A stretch of 64,000 nt of DNA from an uncultured Actinomycetes bacterium (lineage in GTDB: Bacteria; Actinomycetota; Coriobacteriia; Coriobacteriales; Atopobiaceae), in assembly GCA_900314685.1 (NCBI GenBank), contig OMWE01000006.1, positions 1-64,000 on the forward strand. Direction: 5' to 3'. This document shows, one piece after another, positions 1,741 through 17,556 of the stretch (its first letter is position 1; the number at the start of each line of letters is the position of its first letter). The notes below the pieces were generated by a model that was given only the letters and a program-made list of their open reading frames with translations, had not been told where the DNA came from and searched no databases. The position numbers were made by a program, and so were the translations under genes.

Positions 1741-3078
1741 TTACCAGATCTCATTGAAGGCAAGCTCGCCGGACAGAACCGTCGCCGCACAGGTTCCGGC
1801 CCCTTCGCGCACAAAGCGCTCAAGAGTCTCCTCGACGCCGATGGGCGACGAGACATCCACGGGGATATCGAGGAAGGCGAGGTCGGCAAGGGCGCCCGGG
1901 TTGATCTGCCCCACGCGGTCGGGCCCGCAGTTGAGACCCATCGCCTCGGCGCCGCCCAAGGTCAACGCGCGAATCAGGCGATGGCTCAGGTCATCACTGT
2001 CGTAGCCCTGCTCAATAGCGAGCTCGTAGAGCATGGCCGCGTCATCGAGCACGTCAAGTGAGGGCGAGCTGCTGAGCGAGTCCGTGCCCACCGCGACCAT
2101 GTTGCCCTCCTCGAGGTAGCGGGCAACAGGGGCGTCCTTCTTCGTGCAGGTAACGCGATTGGAGCGGGGGCAGAGCGCCACGGCGGCACCGCGCTGGCGT
2201 AGGATGCGACGGTCCTCGCGCGATGCGTAGACGCCATGCGCGATGTGGACGTCGGGGCCGAGCACGCCGAGTTGGTCGACGAACTGGATGGCGCTCGCAT
2301 CCGAGCCCGCCTGTTTGAGCGCCAGGTAGCTCTGCCACGCACGGTGGCTCCAGCTCCACGAGGTGAGGTTGGTGAGCTTGGAGGGGATGGCGCCTCCCTC
2401 GATCGGCGTCTCACCCAGGTGTATATGCAGGCGCATGCCCAGGCTGCGCGCGATGTCGGGCAGGTCGAGCAGGGGGTCCGACTCCAGCGAGTAAGGAGCG
2501 TGGGGGCTGATGCCCAGGCGGATGCCCTTGGTCTGGCCGGCTTCTGCCAGCTGACTCAAGAGAGTGCGGGCCCCCTCGCGCGTCCAGCGGTCGTTCTCCC
2601 AGTCCATGACCTCCCAGTAGGTGATGCCGTGCAGGCCCAGGGAGCTCAACGCGGGAACAGCCTCCATGTCGGTGGCGATATCTGCCGCCGAGGTCGTACC
2701 GGCCCGCAAGAGCTGTCGGGCGCCGTCCTGGGCCCACTGCCCCCAGGGTTTTTGCTCCGGACTGTCGTAGATCTCATTGAAGGCCAGCTCCCACGCCCGA
2801 AAACTCTCGTAAGCCCTCTGTCCCACCGGTGCCATCCCGGTGTACTGGAGGTGCGTGTGAGCGTTGACTAGGCCAGGCGTGAGGAGACCGTCCCAATGGC
2901 GCTCGACCATATCCGCGAGCTCCGCCGCGTCGAGCTCTTCTTGCAGTATCTCGAGCACCCATGTGCGGGTACCCACGTGCAGCACATGCCCCTCGCACAC
3001 GGCGACGGCGCCGTCCAGGATGACGGGCGCCGTGACGGGCACGACGATCGGAGCGGAATAGACAACCACCTGAGCCAT
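1741..3078 (-). CDS. Zinc amidohydrolase, SAH/MTA/adenosine deaminase-like (TrzA/MtaD group)
   Basis: A 445-residue metal-dependent deaminase of the amidohydrolase superfamily. The metal and catalytic residues are all visible: HxH in VNAHTHLQ (His74, His76), ISPHAPYSL (His193), LHIHLGE (His220, Glu223), IAHGVY (His281) and VAVGTDSLSSSPSLD (Asp333). This pattern fits S-adenosylhomocysteine/methylthioadenosine deaminases and also aminodeoxyfutalosine deaminases; the CPRSN motif (from about residue 303) is common in the latter. I place the start at 3078, where AAGGAGAG precedes the ATG by six bases; upstream in-frame codons have no such site. It begins 10 bp after the S-adenosylhomocysteinase-like gene, so the two are very probably one operon acting on one nucleoside. 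The exact substrate is an inference. Confidence 0.85.
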   Translation of the reverse strand: MAQVVVYSAPIVVPVTAPVILDGAVAVCEGHVLHVGTRTWVLEILQEELDAAELADMVERHWDGLLTPGLVNAHTHLQYTGMAPVGQRAYESFRAWELAFNEIYDSPEQKPWGQWAQDGARQLLRAGTTSAADIATDMEAVPALSSLGLHGITYWEVMDWENDRWTREGARTLLSQLAEAGQTKGIRLGISPHAPYSLESDPLLDLPDIARSLGMRLHIHLGETPIEGGAIPSKLTNLTSWSWSHRAWQSYLALKQAGSDASAIQFVDQLGVLGPDVHIAHGVYASREDRRILRQRGAAVALCPRSNRVTCTKKDAPVARYLEEGNMVAVGTDSLSSSPSLDVLDDAAMLYELAIEQGYDSDDLSHRLIRALTLGGAEAMGLNCGPDRVGQINPGALADLAFLDIPVDVSSPIGVEETLERFVREGAGTCAATVLSGELAFNEIW

Positions 3079-3088
3079 AGAACTCTCC

Positions 3089-4513
3089 TTAGGCCTCGTC
3101 GGCAAATCGGGTGAGCTTCCAATCCTGGACTATGGCGTCCGACTCCCCCGCTACGGAACTCGCCGCATATCCACGTGTGGAAAGAGCCAGCCGGGCGATG
3201 CGGGCGTCGACATCCTTGCCCAGGCGCATGACATGACTGGGCAACTCGCCCCGATGTGCAAGCAGGTACTCGACTGCCGAAAGCTGCACGGCAAAACTGA
3301 GGTCCATGACCTCGATTGGATTACCTCCGCCTGCCGTGTAGTTGACGCCGTCGCCATCCGCGAGCAATAGCAGCCTTGGTCCGTCTGGGACGCAAAGACG
3401 ATCGATCCCCTTCCGGCCCGTCGGGTTAGCGGGCGGCAGCTCGTCGAGTGCCACCTCGTTTGCGATGCCGCCGATGACGGCTACCACGGCATCGTCGCGC
3501 ATGCGACGCAGGCAGTCGGCTGTCAGGGTATGACGGACGCCCGTCGCCGATACTACGATATCGGCGTCGCCCACGGCGTCCAACAAGTCGCATGCCGCAA
3601 AGCCCGCAAACACCGCCTGCAGCGCGCGCGTCGGATCGGTGTCGCAGACCGTGACATCCGCGCCGAGGGCGCGCACGCGCAGGGCAAACCCCTCGCCCAC
3701 AGGCCCATAGCCGACCACAGCCACGCGTGCGCCGTCGAAGCAGGTCGGACCGAGTAGGCGCTGCATGGTTGTAACGCAGGTCTCGCCCGTGCCGTGTCGG
3801 TTGTCAAAGCAGGTCTTGAGGAGGGAGTCGTTGGCGGCGACCACGGGCCAGGGCAGCTCATCCGCCTCGTCCATCGCGGCAAATGCCCGCACGCCCGAGG
3901 TCGTCTCCTCGGCAACGCCGCACATGCCCGAGGCGAGCTGAGGCCGTTCGAGCGCTGCCAGGCGCGCAAAGCTCGCCCCGTCGTCGATGATCAGATCGGG
4001 CTGCAGCCCATCGAGCAACCGCAACGCGCCCGCATGGTCCGCGGCCGCGTCCCATCCGGCATCCGCCTCGACAAAAAACCCGCGTCTCCGCAGCTCGTCG
4101 GCCACGCGCCGGTCCACCTCCGCCGCAGGGGCAAAGACGCCCACCTCGGCTCCGGCATCGCGCAGTAGCTGCATCAGCACGCTCGTCTTTGGCTCGAGAA
4201 CCAGGCACACGCCGATACGGATGCCGTCAAGCAGCCCCGTCTCGCCGAGCTCCCGCGCGAGCGTCGATGAGACCGGCATGTACGAGGCGGCACGGTCCAT
4301 AAGCTCCACACCCGTCAGGCTGTGTTCCTCGGGTAGCTCGCCCCAGACATAGTCTGCCGCGTCGCGATTGCGTACCGGCACGAGACCCCACGCGCACAGC
4401 CTCAGCAACAGGTCGGCATCGGCGCGCGCCGGGACCGGCACATACACGCGGGCACCGGCAAGCGACCTATTGGTCCTCTGGGACAACTCGCATATCCACT
4501 CGGCAAACCTCAT
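3089..4513 (-). CDS. Divergent S-adenosylhomocysteinase-like protein
   Basis: A 474-residue homologue of S-adenosylhomocysteine hydrolase. Visible family features are DDG (177-179), EETTSG (202-207), NDSLLKTCFDN with the Lys233/Asp237 pair matching human Lys186/Asp190, a Rossmann motif VVGYGPVG (266-273), and a C-terminal segment GGGNPIEVMDLSF. Several residues of the true enzyme are missing by my alignment by eye. The substrate-binding His of LHMT (human His55) falls on Val or Leu in LVLEPKTSVL. The His of NIGHFD (human His301) is Gly in VIGGIAN. The His of GHP (human His353) is Asn. It probably binds NAD and a nucleoside thioether other than SAH, or has lost the reaction. Start 4513 has GGGGAG seven bases upstream; longer versions lack a site. 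It forms an operon with the downstream deaminase. Confidence 0.8.
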   Translation of the reverse strand: MRFAEWICELSQRTNRSLAGARVYVPVPARADADLLLRLCAWGLVPVRNRDAADYVWGELPEEHSLTGVELMDRAASYMPVSSTLARELGETGLLDGIRIGVCLVLEPKTSVLMQLLRDAGAEVGVFAPAAEVDRRVADELRRRGFFVEADAGWDAAADHAGALRLLDGLQPDLIIDDGASFARLAALERPQLASGMCGVAEETTSGVRAFAAMDEADELPWPVVAANDSLLKTCFDNRHGTGETCVTTMQRLLGPTCFDGARVAVVGYGPVGEGFALRVRALGADVTVCDTDPTRALQAVFAGFAACDLLDAVGDADIVVSATGVRHTLTADCLRRMRDDAVVAVIGGIANEVALDELPPANPTGRKGIDRLCVPDGPRLLLLADGDGVNYTAGGGNPIEVMDLSFAVQLSAVEYLLAHRGELPSHVMRLGKDVDARIARLALSTRGYAASSVAGESDAIVQDWKLTRFADEA

Positions 4514-4683
4514 ACAGACACTCCCCATGCCTCGCCGCTTTTCACCATTATCTTGGGGCTCCCCCGCTATTGCCATGGTAACGATATGCGCAGACACGAG
4601 GCCTTCTTCGTTTAGAAAGTCTGGCTGTAGGGAACCATGCAGACATGGCAATGAACCAATCGCCATGTCGTACGGAGGACATT

Positions 4684-5202
4684 ATGCAAGATAAAAAACC
4701 AAGCAGGCTCTCACTCATCCTTACGGGAATCGCATCCATCGCACTCGGATGTATCTTCTTTGCCAACCCCACCGGAGTCACCGTGAGCATCGTTCAGCTC
4801 ATAGGCTGGGTCGCGGTCATCAGCGGCGTCGTGGGCATCCTCGGCGCCTGGCGCAGCCCCGGTCCCATCACCGCCGGCCTCGATCTCTACCTCGGCATCA
4901 TGGCCGTACTGTTCGGCATCCTCCTTGTCTCAATGCCGGGCTTCTTTGTGAGCTGGCTCATCGTCATCCTGGGCATCTTTGTGACCGTCAGCGGATTCGC
5001 GTCCCTGAGCACTGCAAACGCAATGCGCGCCGCCAGCATCGTCGGCGGGGGCGGGCAGACGGTCGTGTCCGTCCTGCAGATCGTGCTCGGCATCGTGCTC
5101 ATCTGCTCCCCCTTCGCTCTCGTCAACGTCGTGGGCACGGTTGCGGGCGTCGTCCTTATCTTCAACGGCGCGGGCACCGTCTGGCATGCCCTCGCGGCGT
5201 AA
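4684..5202 (+). CDS. HdeD-like DUF308 membrane protein
   Basis: A 172-residue integral membrane protein of the HdeD/DUF308 family. It has a short charged N-terminus (MQDKKPSRLS) followed by about six hydrophobic segments, arranged as the two three-helix repeats usual for this family. Motifs include LGCIFFANPTGVT and a second copy-like segment LGIVLICSPFALVNVV. HdeD of enterobacteria is linked to acid stress, but most members have no known function. The start at 4684 is chosen because GGAGGACATT precedes that ATG; an earlier in-frame ATG at 4645 would only add hydrophilic residues with a poor site. It is divergent from the SAHH-like gene and 70 bp ahead of the Ser hydrolase. Confidence 0.85.
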   Translation: MQDKKPSRLSLILTGIASIALGCIFFANPTGVTVSIVQLIGWVAVISGVVGILGAWRSPGPITAGLDLYLGIMAVLFGILLVSMPGFFVSWLIVILGIFVTVSGFASLSTANAMRAASIVGGGGQTVVSVLQIVLGIVLICSPFALVNVVGTVAGVVLIFNGAGTVWHALAA

Positions 5203-5272
5203 CACCGGCAGACCGCCTGTCGAAGCCGTCGTCGGACCCATGTCGCGTTAGCCGCGGCAGATTGGAGCATTT

Positions 5273-6736
5273 GTGGCAAACCTCTTCGACTACTTGGACT
5301 GGTACGGCGACTTTGACTTTCAGACCGTCCCCTTCAACGAAGTGGACAACCTTGTCCTCGCCCAGCTCAGCTATATGAAACTTGACGGGGCGATTGGTCC
5401 CGACGACCTGATGCCGGCCTATGAGGCGCAGGCGCGTTTCCTGCAGGCCCATGGGTTGGAAACGCCGTCCGACAATGAGAAACGCCAGGCCGAACTCGTG
5501 CGTCTCGGCGAGGCGGTCGCCACGCCCGGCGTGCAGCTCCCCGACAACGGCCCTCTCATATCCGAGCGCACCAATGACCTCCTCGATTACCTGGCCACAT
5601 CCGGCAAGCGCTACCGTAATGCTCGCGTCGGTTACTATGAGTCCGTACTCGACGAAGACACACACGAGCAGTTTGCGGCCCTCACGGTGCTGCTTCCCGA
5701 CGGGACAGTCTATGTAAGCTACCGTGGTACCGACGACTCAATCGTCGGCTGGGTTGAAGACTGCGAGATCAGTTACCGCATCATCCCCTCACAGGAGCAC
5801 GCGCTGCGCTATCTCAGGCGCGTGGCCAATAAAACCGTCGGCCCCCTGCGCATCGGTGGCCACTCGAAAGGCGGCAACCTCGCAGCGTATGCCGCGGCCA
5901 TGGCCCCGGAGCTCGACAATCGCATCATCGACGTTTGGTGCAACGACTCCCCTGGATTTGAGGACAAGGTCGTGCCCCTCTCATCCTTCGACCGCCTGCT
6001 AGATCGCACTCATATCTTCACCCCCGAGTACAGCGTGGTCGGCGCCATCATGGAGCACGCGCTCGAGCCCACGATCATCAAGTCCGCCGGCGACGGAGTG
6101 ATGGAGCACAGCGAGGTCGACTGGCAGGTCATGCGCGGATCCATCGTCCGCGGCAGCGAGCAGCGCACCGGCAGCATCAACGTGAACCGTGCCTTCAGCG
6201 ACCTGCTCGCCAGCCGAGACCTCGAGGGGCGCGAGAAGTTCATCAACGAGCTCTATCAGTCCTGTCTGGACCATGGTCTGCACACCGTGTCGGACATGAT
6301 GGGGTCGGGCGCGGCGGGATTGCGCGCGGTCACGGACTCCATCAACTCGCTCGACGAGAGCGACCGCGACACCATGTACAACTTCATCTGGAGCGCAATG
6401 GGCGGGGCGATGCGGGGCGCCGCGGCCGACGCCACCGCCAGCACCGCCGCCGCCCTGGCCCCCGTCACGAAAGCCGTCAACGAAGCCGTGACCACGGCTA
6501 TGGCAAAGGTGGAGACAGGCGCAAAGGAGCTCATCAAGAAGACCGCGGATCCAAAGACGGTCGAGTTCCTCGCCGACTTACGCGACAGGACACAGGAGCG
6601 CCTCGTTGCCGCTGGATCCGGCGAGACAGCCGTCCCCGATGAGGCGGCCACGTCCGACAGCTCCGAGCAAGACAGCCTCCCCTCCACTCAGTCAGATATG
6701 CCAGCGGGCAGGAATGACGCCGAGCAGTCACGCTAG
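5273..6736 (+). CDS. Mbeg1-like (DUF2974) alpha/beta hydrolase
   Basis: A 487-residue cytosolic protein of the DUF2974/Mbeg1-like family, related to lipases. It has VYVSYRGTDDSIVGWVED (about 147-163), resembling the class 3 lipase oxyanion region, and the nucleophile elbow IGGHSKGGNLAAYAA with Ser198. The family N-terminus (NLFDYLDWYGDFDF) is intact. The last ~130 residues are Ala/Thr/Ser/Glu rich and probably disordered. Translation starts at a GTG (5273) after TTGGAG; no better ATG exists. Members are common in Firmicutes and Coriobacteriia and their substrate is unknown. The TAG stop overlaps the stop codon of the convergent downstream gene within a single CTAG palindrome at 6733-6736. Confidence 0.85.
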   Translation: MANLFDYLDWYGDFDFQTVPFNEVDNLVLAQLSYMKLDGAIGPDDLMPAYEAQARFLQAHGLETPSDNEKRQAELVRLGEAVATPGVQLPDNGPLISERTNDLLDYLATSGKRYRNARVGYYESVLDEDTHEQFAALTVLLPDGTVYVSYRGTDDSIVGWVEDCEISYRIIPSQEHALRYLRRVANKTVGPLRIGGHSKGGNLAAYAAAMAPELDNRIIDVWCNDSPGFEDKVVPLSSFDRLLDRTHIFTPEYSVVGAIMEHALEPTIIKSAGDGVMEHSEVDWQVMRGSIVRGSEQRTGSINVNRAFSDLLASRDLEGREKFINELYQSCLDHGLHTVSDMMGSGAAGLRAVTDSINSLDESDRDTMYNFIWSAMGGAMRGAAADATASTAAALAPVTKAVNEAVTTAMAKVETGAKELIKKTADPKTVEFLADLRDRTQERLVAAGSGETAVPDEAATSDSSEQDSLPSTQSDMPAGRNDAEQSR

Positions 6737-7851
6737 GCCACCTCGTCGACAGCAAACGTCTGCCTCACAAGCTGTAGCACGCGGGGCAAGTCATGCCTAC
6801 CGCATTCATAGAGCCTGAAATCCTCGTGCTCGGGCATCTCCAAGTCCGGGGGCAGCCTCACGCGGCTGAGATCGACCCCCTCGTGTCCGAGCAGCCAGGC
6901 TACCGCCGTGTCGGACCCCTGCAAGGCGGTCGGGTCCCCCGACGCCGAGACCACACGATGGCTCGGGATGACAATGGGCAAGGGGTTGTGCTCCGCTACG
7001 GTGCGCACGACAGCCGCCGATACACGCTTGCCTCGCTTCGCGCTGGCAACCTTTGCGACCTCGCCGAACGTCGCGAGCTCCCCGTAGGGAATCTCGCGGA
7101 TTGCATCGAGTATGGCCAGCTTTGCCTCCGTCCCGAAAGGGTCGATGGGCAGTTCGGACGCATCGGGCTCCTCGTCGAGAAAGTAGGCGTTCAGCCATTC
7201 GCGCAACTGGGGAAACGGCTCTGTTTCTCCGTCCGGATACCAGCCGGACCTCCCCGCGGGCACCGGTGCCAACAAGTCGTCAAAGTTGAAATACGGGTCC
7301 GCGTCGCCCAGCTTGATTCCACAGAGCGACGTACCGTCACTGACCGGGATGAGATAGCCGAGCGGCGACTCAATCAGGTCCGAGTACGCCCCGCACCGAT
7401 GCTCGCCAGGGCCGAGCTCCCCCGCATAGTCCGGCCGTCGCGCTACCAGACGCCCGCCTTCACGCTCGTCTTCCCGCCTCATCTCCTCATCCGCCGAGCG
7501 CAGATACGCGACCATCTTTGCCCGCGCCTGAAACATCTCCGACAGGTGCCTGGGCACGTCGGCGACCACTTCGGTCTCGGGCAGGTCCTCGAAAAGCTCG
7601 GAGTAGTCGCGACCGTTCACCCAGCCCAACAGGTCGTCCAGGTACTGCATCTGAAAAGGCCCGCGCACCGATTGGTAGGGATAGCGATCGCCGCCCACGC
7701 AGGCGTACAGCTGGGTACCCATCTTGTCGCGTGCGGCGCAGTAGTAGAAAAGGCCTCCCCCGTGAACTCGTCTATACGACTCAATCCCGTCCTTGATGCC
7801 CTCCGCCTCCGCCAGACACGAGATCGGGATCAGGCTTTCCTGGTAACCCAT
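6733..7851 (-). CDS. MGMT-fold DNA alkyltransferase-like protein, active-site Cys replaced by Ser
   Basis: A 372-residue protein. The N-terminal ~155 residues (with a Cys/Tyr/Gly-rich segment such as GGGLFYYCAARDKMGTQLYA) match no family I recognise. Residues ~158-225 look like the N-terminal alkyltransferase subdomain (ESPLGYLIPVSDGTSLCGI). Residues ~241-325 are the DNA-binding and catalytic MGMT domain: IREIPYGELATFGEVAK, then NPLPIVIPSHRVV. In O6-methylguanine methyltransferases the last motif is PCHRV, whose Cys accepts the alkyl group. Here position 297 is Ser, encoded by AGC. It cannot act by the normal Cys mechanism and may resemble alkyltransferase-like proteins, which bind damaged bases and call in excision repair. 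Start 7851 has AAGGAG just upstream. Confidence 0.85.
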   Translation of the reverse strand: MGYQESLIPISCLAEAEGIKDGIESYRRVHGGGLFYYCAARDKMGTQLYACVGGDRYPYQSVRGPFQMQYLDDLLGWVNGRDYSELFEDLPETEVVADVPRHLSEMFQARAKMVAYLRSADEEMRREDEREGGRLVARRPDYAGELGPGEHRCGAYSDLIESPLGYLIPVSDGTSLCGIKLGDADPYFNFDDLLAPVPAGRSGWYPDGETEPFPQLREWLNAYFLDEEPDASELPIDPFGTEAKLAILDAIREIPYGELATFGEVAKVASAKRGKRVSAAVVRTVAEHNPLPIVIPSHRVVSASGDPTALQGSDTAVAWLLGHEGVDLSRVRLPPDLEMPEHEDFRLYECGRHDLPRVLQLVRQTFAVDEVA

Positions 7852-8100
7852 GGCACTCCTTTCGTCGCCGTTGCCGTGGGCGCAGCATAGGGCCACCCGC
7901 CACAGAAGGCCGCGGGAATCTCAGGAAGACTTGCATGCAGCTTGTCCCAAACTTGCGGGCAGCTGCAGAGTTTTCATCAAACCGCACGACCCGGGGACCG
8001 TGCTGCGGCCTCAATTTCGTGACTAGCAAAACGTGTAAATCAGGCTCCATCCGCTTCCGTCACGAAGGCTCCACATCATGTTCGCCCGAGATATCTGTCG

Positions 8101-12433: not shown

Positions 12434-13258
12434 CTACCGATTGAACCAGTGGTCCTCGAAGTAGCGGCCAAAGCCGTCCTCATCGACCCCGTACTCCGTG
12501 ACGGCGTCGGCCACGGCTTTGCTGGCCTCGCAGCCATTGGCCATGCAGACGCCCCAGCCCGCCGCCTCAATCATCGCGGTGTCGTTGTCCATGTCGCCGA
12601 TCGCGAGAATCTCGCTCACGGGGATGCCGTTGCGCTCCGCATAACGGCGTAGGCCCACGCCCTTGTTGAGGCCCGGCAGCACAAACTCCACCGTACCGGG
12701 GAAGGTCCGCACGCTATCCCACTTGTCTGAGGGATGGGCGTTGACGACCGCCATGATCTCCTCGTCGAGCTCGGGCTCATATTGGACCTCGACCTTGCCT
12801 GTGTCCACCTCAGCCATCTTCTCGGGCATCACATATTCGACGCGCGAGTGGTTGCGACCGACGCTCTCCTGCAGCTTGCGGTCGTTGCGCTTGGCGTATA
12901 CGAGATCGTAGGCGTCGCGGTACACGATGCAGTCGCAGTCGAGCGGCCACATGAACTCGAGGATCTCGCCGATGGCGTCGGCGGGCAGCAGCATGCTATG
13001 CTCCACGCCCTCGTGGTCCTTGTCCCAGATGTCGCCGCCGTTCATGCCGATCGCGAGGTCGAATTCAAAGCTCAGGCCCCACTCCTTGGCCTTGTCGAGG
13101 GAGCGGTGGTCGAGCGGTCGGCCCGACGCGGTGCCAAAGAGCACGCCCTCCTCGTGCAGGCGCTCAATCGCCGCCTTCGTGCGCGGCATCAAGCCCTGTC
13201 CCTTGGGCGTGAGCGTCCCGTCGACATCGGCCAGCACTGCGGTGAGTTTTTCGATCAT
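12434..13258 (-). CDS. HAD superfamily phosphatase, Cof type (second)
   Basis: A 274-residue Cof-type HAD phosphatase. Motif I is AVLADVDGTLTPKGQ, motif II TASGRPLDHRS, the conserved Lys lies in LPGLNKGVGL, and motif IV is LAIGDMDNDTAM. The start at 13258 is chosen because GAGAGG lies seven bases upstream; the ATG six bases earlier would sit on that site. It is the last gene of the leftward sucrose operon, about 90 bp after GH32 copy 2. Like its counterpart on the rightward arm it is expected to act on sugar phosphates in the cytosol, but the substrate is unknown. The two phosphatases share only family motifs and are not recent duplicates. Confidence 0.85.
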   Translation of the reverse strand: MIEKLTAVLADVDGTLTPKGQGLMPRTKAAIERLHEEGVLFGTASGRPLDHRSLDKAKEWGLSFEFDLAIGMNGGDIWDKDHEGVEHSMLLPADAIGEILEFMWPLDCDCIVYRDAYDLVYAKRNDRKLQESVGRNHSRVEYVMPEKMAEVDTGKVEVQYEPELDEEIMAVVNAHPSDKWDSVRTFPGTVEFVLPGLNKGVGLRRYAERNGIPVSEILAIGDMDNDTAMIEAAGWGVCMANGCEASKAVADAVTEYGVDEDGFGRYFEDHWFNR

Positions 13259-13349
13259 ACGCATTCCTCTCGTATCAAATGTTCGCCCTATTGTGCATAG
13301 GGCGAACGCAGACTCATACACAAGGTCCTTGCCTTGTCGGGGTCAGTCC

Positions 13350-14831
13350 TTATTCGACCATGAAGCCCTTCTTTGCCGCCTCGGCAGCTTCCCTAGCCTC
13401 CCAGACGTCAGCCATGCCGTCGTCCATCTTCCAGCCCTTGCAGGTATCGGCCTCGCCGACCGTCTCGACGCGCAGTTCGTCGGCCGTCGGGAACCAGCGC
13501 GTCGCAAAGGCGAGCAGGCCGTCGTTGACAAAGACCTCGACCGCGCTGGAGTCGACCAGCAGGCGGATGTCGTCGGCTTTTGCGCAATCACAGTGGTGCT
13601 CGACGCGCCCGCCTGCGATGGCCGGGTCGCCCACGAAGCGCAGCGTCGCGCGCCCGTCCGCCACCGTGAACTCCAACGCGTCGTCCAACATGATGCGGTA
13701 GTCTCCCTTGATGCCCTTGACGCGCAGGTCGGCACGGTGCCGGGGGAAGGTGAAGACGCCGTTTACCGGCTTGACCTTGCCGTGGCGGAGCTTCTTCATC
13801 TCGGGCACGGGGTAGTTGCGCAGCAGGTTGTCTTCTCCGCGCGTGATGATACGCGGCACGGTCAGGCATTGCCAGAAATCAAGGCCGCCGGGCTTGGTCT
13901 CGTACGGCTGGTCGGGCACGCCCATCCAAGCGAGCATGATGGTGCGGCCCCGCTCGTCCACAAACGCCTGTGTGGCGTAGAAGTCGAAGCCGTGGTCCCA
14001 CAGGATGAACTCATCCGTATCGACCGTCGTCGCGTTGAGCACACGGCCCGGCATGGGGATGTAGCCCGTGATGTGGTTGTTCTCCCAGTCGGGCACCTCG
14101 TCGCGCCGACGCTGCGGGCAGAATACCAGGTACTCGTGGAGTTTGCCCCGCGCATCGGGGAAGACGAGCCGGTCGGGGCACTCCCACATGTAGCCGAAGT
14201 GCTGGCGCGCGCGGATGGTGGAGCGCAACTGCCAGTGGAGTTTGTCGCGGCTGTCGTACAGCATGATGAAGCCGTTGTCGCTCTTGTCGCGCGCGCCGAG
14301 GATCATGCGGTAGGGCCTGCCGTCGCCATTGTCCTCGATCCACACCTTGGGGTCGCGGACGTGGCAGGTCACATAGTCGGGGTAGTCACGCGGCATCAGC
14401 AGCACGTCTTTGCGGGTGAAATGCAGCGCGTCCTGGGACGTGGTCGTGATCTGGCTCTCCCAACGCCCCTCGTAATCGTAGTCGTGCGTGCCCGGCTCCT
14501 TGAAATTGCCCGTGAAGAAGAGCCGCATCGTCTGGCCACCGTCCTCGAGGAAGGCACAGCCGGAGAACGACCCGTGCGCGTCGAAGGGCGAGTCCTCGTG
14601 GATCGAGAGTCCCGTGTGGTGCCAGTGCACCAGGTCCTCGCTCCACGCATGGCCCCACGCGCGGGGGAACATATCGGGATAGTTGGGCATGTACTGGTGA
14701 TACACGTGGTAGATGCCCTTGAATTGACAGCAGCCGTTGGGGTCGTTCAACCAGCCCACCCCGCCCGGGGGCATCAGGTGAAAGCCCAGGCGCCAGCGCT
14801 CGTTGTCGTCCTTCGCAGCCTTACCGGTCAT
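13350..14831 (-). CDS. Glycoside hydrolase family 32 (sucrose-6-phosphate hydrolase / beta-fructosidase), copy 2
   Basis: A 493-residue GH32 enzyme with the most canonical active site of the three copies: WLNDPNGCCQF (Asp30 nucleophile), HVRDPKVW (Asp160) and YMWECPD (Glu218 acid/base). A C-terminal beta-sandwich contains LLVDSSAVEVFVNDG, the usual GH32 signature. There is no signal peptide, so cytosolic action on phosphorylated or imported sucrose and short fructans is expected. The hydrophobic residues near the active site (MPPGGVGWLND, YHVYHQYMPN) match sucrose-6-phosphate hydrolases. It lies 67 bp downstream of GH32 copy 3 in the leftward operon that begins at the PTS permease. The likely role is to give glucose 6-phosphate and fructose from the sugar brought in by ScrA. 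Confidence 0.92.
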   Translation of the reverse strand: MTGKAAKDDNERWRLGFHLMPPGGVGWLNDPNGCCQFKGIYHVYHQYMPNYPDMFPRAWGHAWSEDLVHWHHTGLSIHEDSPFDAHGSFSGCAFLEDGGQTMRLFFTGNFKEPGTHDYDYEGRWESQITTTSQDALHFTRKDVLLMPRDYPDYVTCHVRDPKVWIEDNGDGRPYRMILGARDKSDNGFIMLYDSRDKLHWQLRSTIRARQHFGYMWECPDRLVFPDARGKLHEYLVFCPQRRRDEVPDWENNHITGYIPMPGRVLNATTVDTDEFILWDHGFDFYATQAFVDERGRTIMLAWMGVPDQPYETKPGGLDFWQCLTVPRIITRGEDNLLRNYPVPEMKKLRHGKVKPVNGVFTFPRHRADLRVKGIKGDYRIMLDDALEFTVADGRATLRFVGDPAIAGGRVEHHCDCAKADDIRLLVDSSAVEVFVNDGLLAFATRWFPTADELRVETVGEADTCKGWKMDDGMADVWEAREAAEAAKKGFMVE

Positions 14832-14898
14832 TGCGGCCTCCTATCGGTCGTCACGGCCTTTTGTCGACTATTGCGACCCTATCGGTCGCCACGGATCG

Positions 14899-16422
14899 CT
14901 ATCCGACGTTTGCGAAGGTAAAGGCACCCATCTCCCATGCGGTGTAGCGCGCCTGCAGCGTAGAGGTCACGTGCAGGTTGGTGATGTCGAGCGGATACCA
15001 ACGCGTGGTCATGGTCTTCTCGCCGCCGTTGATGTAGATTTCGACGACCGAGGTATCCACCATGATACGCAAATCGGTCACACGGCCAGCGGAGAGGTCC
15101 GAGAGGAGCAGGCGGCGGTTGGTGCGCCAGCGGCCCGACGGGCTCTGGAAGTCCAGCTCGAGCATATCGCCGTGGATGAAGAGCTCCAAGTCCGCGCCGA
15201 TGATCACGCGACCCTCACCTTGGATGCCCTCGATCAGCGTGTCGCAGGTCCCGTTGGGGAAAAGCGCGCTCACGGCGCCGTCGATATCGAACATGTCGCA
15301 GGTGGTCTGCGAGCCGACGTAGCCTGTGGCACCGGGCGCCGCCTCCGCCGTGAACTCGACGGGCGTCTCGCGCAGCGCCTCGATCTCCTCCACAGGCCAG
15401 AAGCACACGCGGCCCGCCTCATTGAGGGAGAGCACGCGCGGCAGGGTCATCGTGTGCATCCACTCGCGCGTGGGCGTCTCGTACTGGAACTCGATGTCGG
15501 GCAGACCGACCCAGCCGCCCAGGATAGAGCGGCCGCGCTCGTCCACAAAGATTTGCGGGCAGTAGTAGTCAAAGCCGTAATCCGTCTCGACGAAGTCCTT
15601 CATATCGAAGCAGGCGTAGGGACCGTCGGCCTCCATCAGACCAGGGTCCTGGGACAGCAGGTCGATGACCTTGCCCTCCACGGGGAAATAACCGCAGTTG
15701 TGGATGTTTTGGAACTTGAAGGGCTGCTTGGGCACGCCCTGCGGGCAGACAAAGAGGAACTCACGCCCGTCGATCTGGGCGACGTTGGGGCACTCCCACA
15801 TGTAGCCGAAGGCCCGCTCGCCCCGGTTGGTGGCCGAGCCCTCGAGCTCCCACGCATAGCCGTCGTCGGACTTGTAGAGCAATACGCCGCCGCGGCTGTC
15901 CTTGGTGCGAGCGCCGAGCAGCATGTGCAGGCGGCCGTCCTGCTCCCAGACCTTGGGGTCGCGCACGTGGTTGGAGCAGTAGGCGGGGTAGCCGTCGTTG
16001 CCCAGCACGCAGACCTTGTCGGTGAAGTGGTCGCCGTCCTCGGAGATCACGAGGTTCTCGTTGGCCAGACGCCCCGCAAAGTCGTAGTCGTAGTCACCGG
16101 GCATCAGGACGTTGCCGGTGTAGTAGCACCAGAGCTTGCCGTCACGCACAAGCGCGGAGCCTGAATAAGAACCGTTGCGGTCGAGCTCGCAGTCCGGACG
16201 GATGGTCTCCCCGTGGAAGGTCCAGTTCACAAGGTCGGGGCTGGACCAATGCCCCCACCCGTGCCCGACCGCCGGCCACTTGGGCGTGTACTGGTGGAAG
16301 AAGTGATACACGCCGTCCAGCTGCGACAAACCGTTCGGATCCGTGAGACCGCCCGTCGGCGTCTGCAGGTGATACCTCAGCCGCCAATTGTGCTTGGGAT
16401 TCCAGTTGATATCGACCGCCAT
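14899..16422 (-). CDS. Glycoside hydrolase family 32 (beta-fructosidase), copy 3
   Basis: A 507-residue GH32 enzyme with GLTDPNGLSQL (Asp28; Thr instead of Asn before the nucleophile), HVRDPKVW (Asp155) and YMWECPN (Glu210, with Asn instead of the final Asp). It ends with a beta-sandwich containing MVDTSVVEIYINGGE. The changes around the nucleophile resemble those in copy 1 (SDPNG), so copies 1 and 3 may share a substrate range different from copy 2. There is no signal peptide. It is separated from the upstream fructokinase by 177 bp that hold a large inverted-repeat structure, which may set the level of read-through into the two GH32 genes. Confidence 0.91.
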   Translation of the reverse strand: MAVDINWNPKHNWRLRYHLQTPTGGLTDPNGLSQLDGVYHFFHQYTPKWPAVGHGWGHWSSPDLVNWTFHGETIRPDCELDRNGSYSGSALVRDGKLWCYYTGNVLMPGDYDYDFAGRLANENLVISEDGDHFTDKVCVLGNDGYPAYCSNHVRDPKVWEQDGRLHMLLGARTKDSRGGVLLYKSDDGYAWELEGSATNRGERAFGYMWECPNVAQIDGREFLFVCPQGVPKQPFKFQNIHNCGYFPVEGKVIDLLSQDPGLMEADGPYACFDMKDFVETDYGFDYYCPQIFVDERGRSILGGWVGLPDIEFQYETPTREWMHTMTLPRVLSLNEAGRVCFWPVEEIEALRETPVEFTAEAAPGATGYVGSQTTCDMFDIDGAVSALFPNGTCDTLIEGIQGEGRVIIGADLELFIHGDMLELDFQSPSGRWRTNRRLLLSDLSAGRVTDLRIMVDTSVVEIYINGGEKTMTTRWYPLDITNLHVTSTLQARYTAWEMGAFTFANVG

Positions 16423-16451
16423 GCCTACCTCCTCAATTCAGCGACGAGGAA

Positions 16452-16583
16452 GGGTGGTGCGGCGCGGGGGCAGTTTTTGCGAGTTGCGAAACTATATTAA
16501 TTTTCAAATAGTTGAGCAAGCGAGCAAAAGCGTCCTTCTTTTGCGAGCGCCGAGCGAATAACTGCCCCCGCGCCGCACCACCC
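16452..16583. repeat. 24-bp perfect inverted repeat enclosing two smaller hairpins
   Basis: Two identical 24-bp arms in inverted orientation, 16452-16475 (starts GGGTGGTGCGGCGCGG) and 16560-16583, enclose 84 bp. Inside, ACTAT/ATAGT with flanking bases can form one hairpin (about 16480-16528) and GCAAAAG-CGTCCTT-CTTTTGC (from 16524) another, giving a three-way or cloverleaf shape in RNA or single-stranded DNA. It lies between the fructokinase and GH32 copy 3. No poly-T follows, so it is not a standard terminator. Confidence 0.8.
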
Positions 16584-16599
16584 CTCCCCTCATCAACAA

Positions 16600-17556
16600 T
16601 TAGTGCGCGTTGAGCACAGCCTCGACCTCGACGCGGGTGGGCATCGCGGGGATGCCGCCGCGCTTGCGGACGCAGAGTGACGCCACGGCGTTGCCCACGC
16701 GGGCCATCATCTTGGCGTCCTCGAGCGTCAGCTTGTCGGGGGTCAGGCCGGACTCGAGGAAGGACGAGAGGAAGCCGCCCCAGAAGGAGTCGCCCGCGCC
16801 GGTCGTGTCCAGCACGCCTGCGGGGAAGGGCGGGACGACCTCGCCGCCCTCAGCGGTGCGCACGTAGGCGCCGTTGCCGCCGAGCGTCACGACGCAGACG
16901 GAGGCGCCCTGCCCGACGATAGCGGCGGCCGCGGCCTCGGGCTCGTCGAAGTCGGTCAGCAGGCCGCACTCCTCGTCGCTGATCTTCACGAGGTCCATCA
17001 TCGGCAGCACGGAGCGCATCTGCTCCATCGCGGCGCCGACGTTGGGCCACAGGTTGGCACGGTAGTTGGGGTCGTAGCTCATCACGCAGCCGGCGTCCTT
17101 GGCGATCTCCAGCGCGCGGTGCGTCGCGGAGCGTGCTGGCTCGTCGGTCAGCGAGAGCGAGCCGATGTGGAAGATGCGGCTGTCGCGGATGATGCGCTCG
17201 TCGATCTCCTCGGGACGCAGCTGGGTGTCGGCACCGGGCTTGCGCGCGAAGGAGAAGGTGCGGTCGCCCTGTTCGTCCAGGGCGACGAAGGCGAGCGTCG
17301 TGAAGTAGTCGGGGTCGGTGATCAGGCCGTCGCAGTTGATGGCGTTGGACGTCAGCGTCCCGCGCAGGAACTCGCCGTGCATGTCGTTGCCGATCTTGCC
17401 GATGAAGGCGGTCTCAAAGCCCAGGCGCTCCAACGCAACGAGCACGTTTGCCGGCGCGCCGCCGGGGTTGCGCTCAAAGAGCTTCTGGCCTCCCTCGGAG
17501 ACGCCTGCGTCTGTGAAGTCGATAAGTACCTCGCCCAGTGCGGTAACGCTGATCAT
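16600..17556 (-). CDS. scrK: Fructokinase, PfkB family
   Basis: A 318-residue ribokinase/PfkB-family sugar kinase that phosphorylates fructose to fructose 6-phosphate. The N-terminus (VTALGEVLIDFTDAG) and NPGGAPANVLVALERLGF are typical of fructokinases. The ATP and catalytic motif is VLDTTGAGDSFWGGFLSS, which includes the general-base Asp. AFIGKIGNDMHGEFL is the usual lid-side motif. It starts at 17556 after AAGGAGCG and is the second gene of the leftward sucrose operon, right behind the sucrose PTS permease. This is the normal position for ScrK, which uses the fructose released by GH32 enzymes. A second sugar kinase of the unrelated ROK family lies at 34241-35119. Confidence 0.92.
   Translation of the reverse strand: MISVTALGEVLIDFTDAGVSEGGQKLFERNPGGAPANVLVALERLGFETAFIGKIGNDMHGEFLRGTLTSNAINCDGLITDPDYFTTLAFVALDEQGDRTFSFARKPGADTQLRPEEIDERIIRDSRIFHIGSLSLTDEPARSATHRALEIAKDAGCVMSYDPNYRANLWPNVGAAMEQMRSVLPMMDLVKISDEECGLLTDFDEPEAAAAAIVGQGASVCVVTLGGNGAYVRTAEGGEVVPPFPAGVLDTTGAGDSFWGGFLSSFLESGLTPDKLTLEDAKMMARVGNAVASLCVRKRGGIPAMPTRVEVEAVLNAH

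Follow-up and report, generated by a model that had tools for sequence, protein, structure and literature searches.

A divergent S-adenosylhomocysteine hydrolase-like family that lacks three catalytic-site histidines and is paired with a deaminase may serve nucleoside salvage

What can an enzyme of the S-adenosylhomocysteine hydrolase (SAHH) family do once the histidines of its active site have been lost, and why is its gene accompanied by that of a deaminase? The question is raised by two genes of the window, that is, the whole stretch of 64,000 nucleotides analysed here, which belongs to an uncultured member of the Atopobiaceae. Both genes are intact and, as an earlier note on this DNA had described, adjacent, with 10 bp between the stop of the SAHH-like gene and the start of the deaminase gene:

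3089..4513, minus strand: SAHH-like gene, 474 amino acids; start ATG at 4513, with GGGGAG 7 nt upstream.
1741..3078, minus strand: amidohydrolase gene (predicted deaminase of 5'-substituted adenosine), 445 amino acids; start ATG at 3078, SD AAGGAGAG.

The most likely start of the SAHH-like gene is the ATG at 4513; an ATG at 4666 was considered and is unlikely, because the conserved N-terminus of the family (MxFAxW) begins at 4513. The protein consists of an N-terminal extension of about 65 amino acids followed by the two-Rossmann SAHH fold, and it is matched in Pfam by AdoHcyase_NAD and AdoHcyase, the deaminase being matched by Amidohydro_1. In three other loci a free-standing Rossmann-like protein (GxGxxA; TNLSFAxTRV) without a Pfam match is encoded just upstream of the SAHH-like gene (L117, 9318-9965; L118, 9291-9965; L105, 9411-9965) and resembles the start of the extension in the window protein (TNRSLAGARV). 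Upstream of the pair, at 4645-7896 of the window, a DUF308 membrane protein and an Mbeg1-like hydrolase, the latter also kept in Olegusella and Atopobium, are encoded on the other strand and are followed, on the minus strand, by the gene of a protein that contains O6-methylguanine-DNA methyltransferase domains.

The mechanism of SAHH provides the frame in which the residues of the window protein can be read. A set of Lys, Asn and Glu residues serves the oxidation of C3', an Asp takes the proton of C4', the catalytic His (human His55) protonates the leaving sulfur, and His301-Phe302 of the human enzyme form a gate for homocysteine (PMC13406329). Furthermore, the motif HxExK marks the enzymes that prefer S-inosylhomocysteine (SIH), its Lys contacting O6 of hypoxanthine (PMC10978960). 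Positions were assigned by MAFFT alignment with human SAHH and the canonical SAHHs of the same genomes, in which the canonical SIH hydrolases (SIHHs) of the same genomes served as a reference independent of the human sequence:

4199..4201, minus strand: Val105, aligned with human His55 and followed by E107 and K109, which belong to the hypoxanthine motif ExK.
3803..3817, minus strand: Lys233 to Asp237, corresponding to human Lys186/Asp190; these NAD-redox/3'-oxidation residues are kept.
3467..3469, minus strand: Gly349, where the human enzyme has the gate residue His301; in place of the adjoining Phe302 stands Ile350.
3320..3322, minus strand: Asn398, aligned with human His353, so that GHP reads GNP here.

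The loss of the residues matching human His55, His301 and His353, which the earlier note had seen in an alignment by eye, is borne out by this alignment and recurs across 81 relatives: position 55 is occupied by Val in 39, Ile in 34 and Phe in eight of them, position 301 by Gly and position 353 by Asn in all 81, the last count being biased by the presence of GNP in one of the two scan patterns, while the nine members found by profile search also have Asn. No column of conserved His was found over the 81 relatives, so the histidines have not moved elsewhere, and misalignment was rejected as an explanation. The motifs said to be kept, Lys233/Asp237, DDG (D178), EETTSG (E203) and GYGPVG, are all present, and each of E57, K59, D131, E156, N181, K186, D190 and N191 (human numbering) occurs in 81 of 81 members of the divergent family, which has gained an invariant Arg at human position 137 (Arg184 in the window protein). 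By contrast, HxExK or HxTxE, GHF and GHP are retained in those canonical enzymes of the class that were inspected. In the divergent family the HxExK fingerprint is incomplete, ExK being present and the His lost throughout the 81, and the STQ loop on the homocysteine side (human 83-85) is replaced in most members. When the published residue roles (PMC13406329) are mapped on the alignment, the oxidising half of the active site is intact, with the leaving-group acid and the gate gone; an SAHH-like precedent from herbicidin is cited in the same source. The retained ExK, in turn, predicts the binding of a hypoxanthine nucleoside.

The AF2 model of the SAHH-like protein (mean pLDDT 93.6) has the SAHH fold, in agreement with the kinship noticed earlier, and gives Z scores of 42-48 against SAHH structures, the top ones being those of P. 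furiosus (Z 47.9), T. maritima and M. maripaludis. With these SIHH/archaeal-type enzymes (7r37, 3x2f and 7r3a, respectively) the family shares the two-Rossmann fold (Z ~48; 32-35% identity), the ExK motif, the Lys/Asp/Glu/Asn set for NAD-linked 3'-oxidation and a partner deaminase, but it has V/I/F, G-I/V and N in place of the HxExK His, the gate His-Phe and the GHP His, as well as the invariant Arg184, the N-terminal extension and a clade of its own. In fact, in a tree of 42 proteins it forms a clade with branch support 100/100, apart from HxTxE/Q SAHHs and HxExK SIHHs and outside the six HxExK rows included. The NCBIfam model NF004009, 'adenosylhomocysteinase', matches the window protein with 605 bits against a cut-off of 485, yet its name asserts ordinary hydrolysis of S-adenosylhomocysteine (SAH), which the residue evidence does not support. 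To judge from residues and tree, the family is a widespread, mis-annotated and newly recognised variant within the SAHH family; the literature searched on this family, on SAHH in Bifidobacterium, on DUF985 partners and on SAM/SAH uptake there yielded nothing specific.

The loss of three catalytic-site histidines might also indicate that the protein has no catalytic role and acts in regulation or sensing by binding NAD together with an inosyl ligand, in the manner of the AHCYL1 proteins. The mammalian AHCYL1/IRBIT is an SAHH-fold paralogue thought not to hydrolyse SAH, but it is a eukaryotic regulator without a deaminase, importer or cupin partner, whereas here an enzyme partner is always present, importer genes usually are, and the 3'-oxidation residues are all invariant in 81 distant sequences; we regard a purely regulatory role as very unlikely.

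The partnership with the deaminase is strict. When 298 genomes of the window's class were surveyed by profile search with a family cut-off, the SAHH-like family exceeded the cut-off in nine, from four genera of one family, and the deaminase was present in exactly those nine. When the family alignment was used to scan 84,980 species genomes, with patterns that favour members with GNP and FDNRHGTG, 457 candidate relatives came up, and 80 loci were kept, among them Bifidobacterium, Gardnerella, Alloscardovia, Parafannyhessea, Olegusella, Curtobacterium, Leifsonia, Mycolicibacterium and two Clostridiales MAGs, so that the hosts of the pair comprise Bifidobacteriaceae, Atopobiaceae, Microbacteriaceae and others. 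All 80 loci contain the deaminase gene. In 76 it is the next gene downstream of the SAHH-like gene, in three the two are separated by an ECF importer, and the remaining locus is that of Amnibacterium. The co-occurrence is far beyond chance, and the earlier expectation of a pairing conserved in other genomes is confirmed.

The AF2 model of the deaminase (pLDDT 92.1) is nearest to MTA deaminases, MTA/SAH deaminases, the aminofutalosine deaminase (AFLDA) of H. pylori and TM0936, no NCBIfam equivalog above cut-off was found for it, and its best sequence match in the PDB is DR_0824, reportedly an aminodeoxyfutalosine deaminase (Goble 2013, cited in PMC6302742). With DadD and the MTA/SAH deaminases (MJ1541, TM0936, PA MTA deaminase) and with aminofutalosine deaminase it shares the amidohydrolase fold and the residues of the mononuclear metal site and the proton shuttle (H75, H77, H219, E224, H282 and D334), which are invariant in an alignment including two MTA/SAH-type deaminases. 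However, window-type deaminases are 23-27% identical to MTA/SAH-type deaminases of the same genus, and the motifs CPRSN and GTDSLSSSPSLD set them apart from the enzymes just named.

The resemblance to DR_0824 and AFLDA would suit a futalosine-type route, also envisaged in the earlier note, in which an aminodeoxyfutalosine deaminase would act together with a futalosine-processing SAHH homologue. In the window's own genome, however, which is estimated to be 91% complete, PF02621 found one weak match (32.7 bits) instead of the two expected from MqnA and MqnD, and the futalosine pathway appears to be absent from it. Menaquinone synthesis, moreover, fits neither the gene cluster nor the hosts (bifidobacteria are not known to make menaquinone), and the C-C bond at C5' lies beyond elimination by SAHH chemistry. 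Such a substrate is, in our opinion, barely credible.

Another candidate is SAH: the earlier note had suggested that the pair may be a bacterial version of the route of Methanocaldococcus, where SAH is deaminated and the resulting SIH is split by an SAHH homologue. The SIH route has been placed in Euryarchaeota and related thermophilic bacteria (PMC10978960). A full set of its genes was found in the window's own genome at another place:

Contig C46 (L037), 12551-16091 and 16350-17063: SIH route, back to back with an amino-acid SBP gene.

This route comprises an MTA/SAH-type deaminase, an HxExK hydrolase with all three His and a DeoD PNP; by its gene content, a Methanocaldococcus-type route is present in a mesophilic actinobacterium, at C46 and not at the window locus. 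The same genome also contains an MTA/SAH nucleosidase, and LuxS was not found in it. Furthermore, another SAH-disposal route was found in 29 of 31 sampled hosts, whose genomes may be incomplete (LuxS in 17, canonical SAHH in eight, HxExK SIHH in four), and the pair therefore probably handles something that the other enzymes do not; housekeeping SAH removal as its main role was rejected on the same count. The proposal of a bacterial Methanocaldococcus-type route from SAH to SIH at this locus is not supported, while the pairing of a deaminase with an SAHH relative stands, with the pairing conserved and binding of a hypoxanthine nucleoside expected; the suggestion of another purine nucleoside is the best part of the idea.

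A plain SIHH might nevertheless be at work if catalysis had been rearranged, for example through Arg184 and Asn398, so that the deaminase would turn SAH into SIH and the SAHH-like protein would turn SIH into inosine and homocysteine. The fold and ExK are common to SIHHs, the deaminase model is closest to MTA/SAH-type deaminases, SAH-cycle genes adjoin some copies, and no other SAH route was found in Aeriscardovia and Leucobacter. But none of the 81 relatives has kept the sulfur-protonating acid or the homocysteine gate, the STQ loop is replaced in most, and the other route present in nearly all sampled hosts is sometimes a true SIHH; we consider this explanation rather unlikely. Aeriscardovia (L075) and Leucobacter (L121), in which the divergent gene is present and neither LuxS nor canonical SAHH was found, could show what the SAHH-like enzyme can replace.

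Clues to the substrate come from the other genes of the operon. A probable polar amino-acid-type (PAAT) ABC importer is represented by its SBP in 70 of the 80 loci, with permease and ATPase, and its class points to an amino-acid-bearing ligand. The SBP (SBP_bac_3) has Arg at the alpha-carboxylate-binding position in 70 of 70 cases and the partner Asp in only 50; we take these two residues to bind the carboxylate and to be the alpha-amino partner, respectively, as in amino-acid SBPs. In about 16 loci an MTAN-like nucleosidase distinct from Pfs is encoded nearby (L056, 14784-15791; L070, 13216-14046; L076, 13472-14371; and about 13 others), and its residue 197, a catalytic, purine-contacting Asp in true Pfs, is Asn in all 16 adjacent copies, a change that separates 6-oxopurine from adenine enzymes in this nucleosidase superfamily. 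A hypoxanthine nucleoside as intermediate is thus indicated by three independent signs, namely the deaminase, ExK and this Asn-type nucleosidase. The operon of Parafannyhessea has a luxS-pfs pair back to back with it, and in Olegusella and Atopobium sp. oral taxon 810 the pair and the importer are separated by a canonical SIHH and an MTA/SAH deaminase; such neighbours, which represent three unrelated systems of SAH disposal, suggest a link with the SAM/SAH circle, and in the window's own genome the SBP gene of the importer adjoins the canonical SIH route. An Rfam search of seven loci for a riboswitch as ligand clue found none.

A DUF985 (PF06172) cupin is encoded in 72 of the 80 loci and follows the deaminase in most operons (for example L104, 12747-13178, and 71 other loci); the solved DUF985 members 1yud and 1znp are deposited as hypothetical proteins. 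Its presence would be in keeping with NAD-dependent chemistry without 5' elimination, in which 3'-oxidation would be followed by base loss, by epimerisation or by delivery of a 3'-keto nucleoside to the cupin. The 3'-oxidation residues are kept where the 5' acid and gate are lost, and free base is a side product of SAHHs (PMC10978960); yet the invariant C4' base Asp131 points to C4' deprotonation, and several operons have a separate nucleosidase, so that we judge such chemistry improbable.

Pairing, residue changes, operon and transporter class, all read from the sequences, lead us to propose, tentatively and with a probability of roughly 45%, that the pair supplies the core enzymes of an operon for nucleoside salvage, in which an imported nucleoside of the S-adenosyl-amino-acid type would be deaminated and then cleaved in an NAD-dependent manner without His acid catalysis. 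We infer the substrate, the order of steps and the leaving group as follows. The amino-acid-type ABC importer of most relatives would take up an adenine nucleoside with an amino acid on C5' (SAM/SAH class), and the amidohydrolase would convert it by deamination into the inosyl analogue. This hypoxanthine nucleoside would be bound by the SAHH-like protein, whose bound NAD+ would oxidise C3', Asp178 (human Asp131) would make the C4' anion, and the 5' group would be expelled without the His55 acid and the His301-Phe302 gate; where present, the MTAN-like nucleosidase and the DUF985 cupin would process the product. Because that acid and gate are absent, the 5' group is likely to be larger than the neutral homocysteine thiol or to leave more readily.

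Against this salvage role it must be said that, in the region of the two arginines of TM0936, which presumably bind the homocysteine part, the deaminase reads YWEVM in the alignment and both Arg appear to be absent, so that an amino acid on C5' would have to be bound in a different way, and that the partner Asp of the SBP is not universal. In addition, an ECF importer with a riboflavin-type S component replaces the ABC importer in Mycolicibacterium, Rathayibacter and Cryobacterium, and in the window's own genome the SBP of the operon importer lies divergently beside the SIH route, on another contig than the pair, and the DUF985 cupin was not found.

On chemical grounds, a sulfonium, for example S-inosylmethionine, could be cleaved without an acid and would best explain the loss of His55. 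A specific and quite unlikely form of the salvage proposal is therefore that the His-free SAHH-fold enzyme acts on a sulfonium nucleoside: SAM, or else its inactive epimer, would be imported and deaminated to S-inosylmethionine, from which methionine would be eliminated via a 3'-keto intermediate; if this were true, bifidobacteria and other Actinobacteria would possess a so far unknown pathway of SAM salvage.

The divergent gene or a relative occurs in hundreds of genomes (the 457 candidates), including those of gut bifidobacteria, vaginal Gardnerella and plant-surface Curtobacterium. If the name 'adenosylhomocysteinase', which the window member bears, is wrong, the models of the methyl cycle and of SAM/SAH in these bacteria are wrong as well, and a conserved nutrient-uptake pathway goes unseen. 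The family also tests the reach of SAHH chemistry once the acid catalyst and the molecular gate have been removed, and its conserved operon suggests an unrecognised route for the uptake and breakdown of a nucleoside of the SAM/SAH class.
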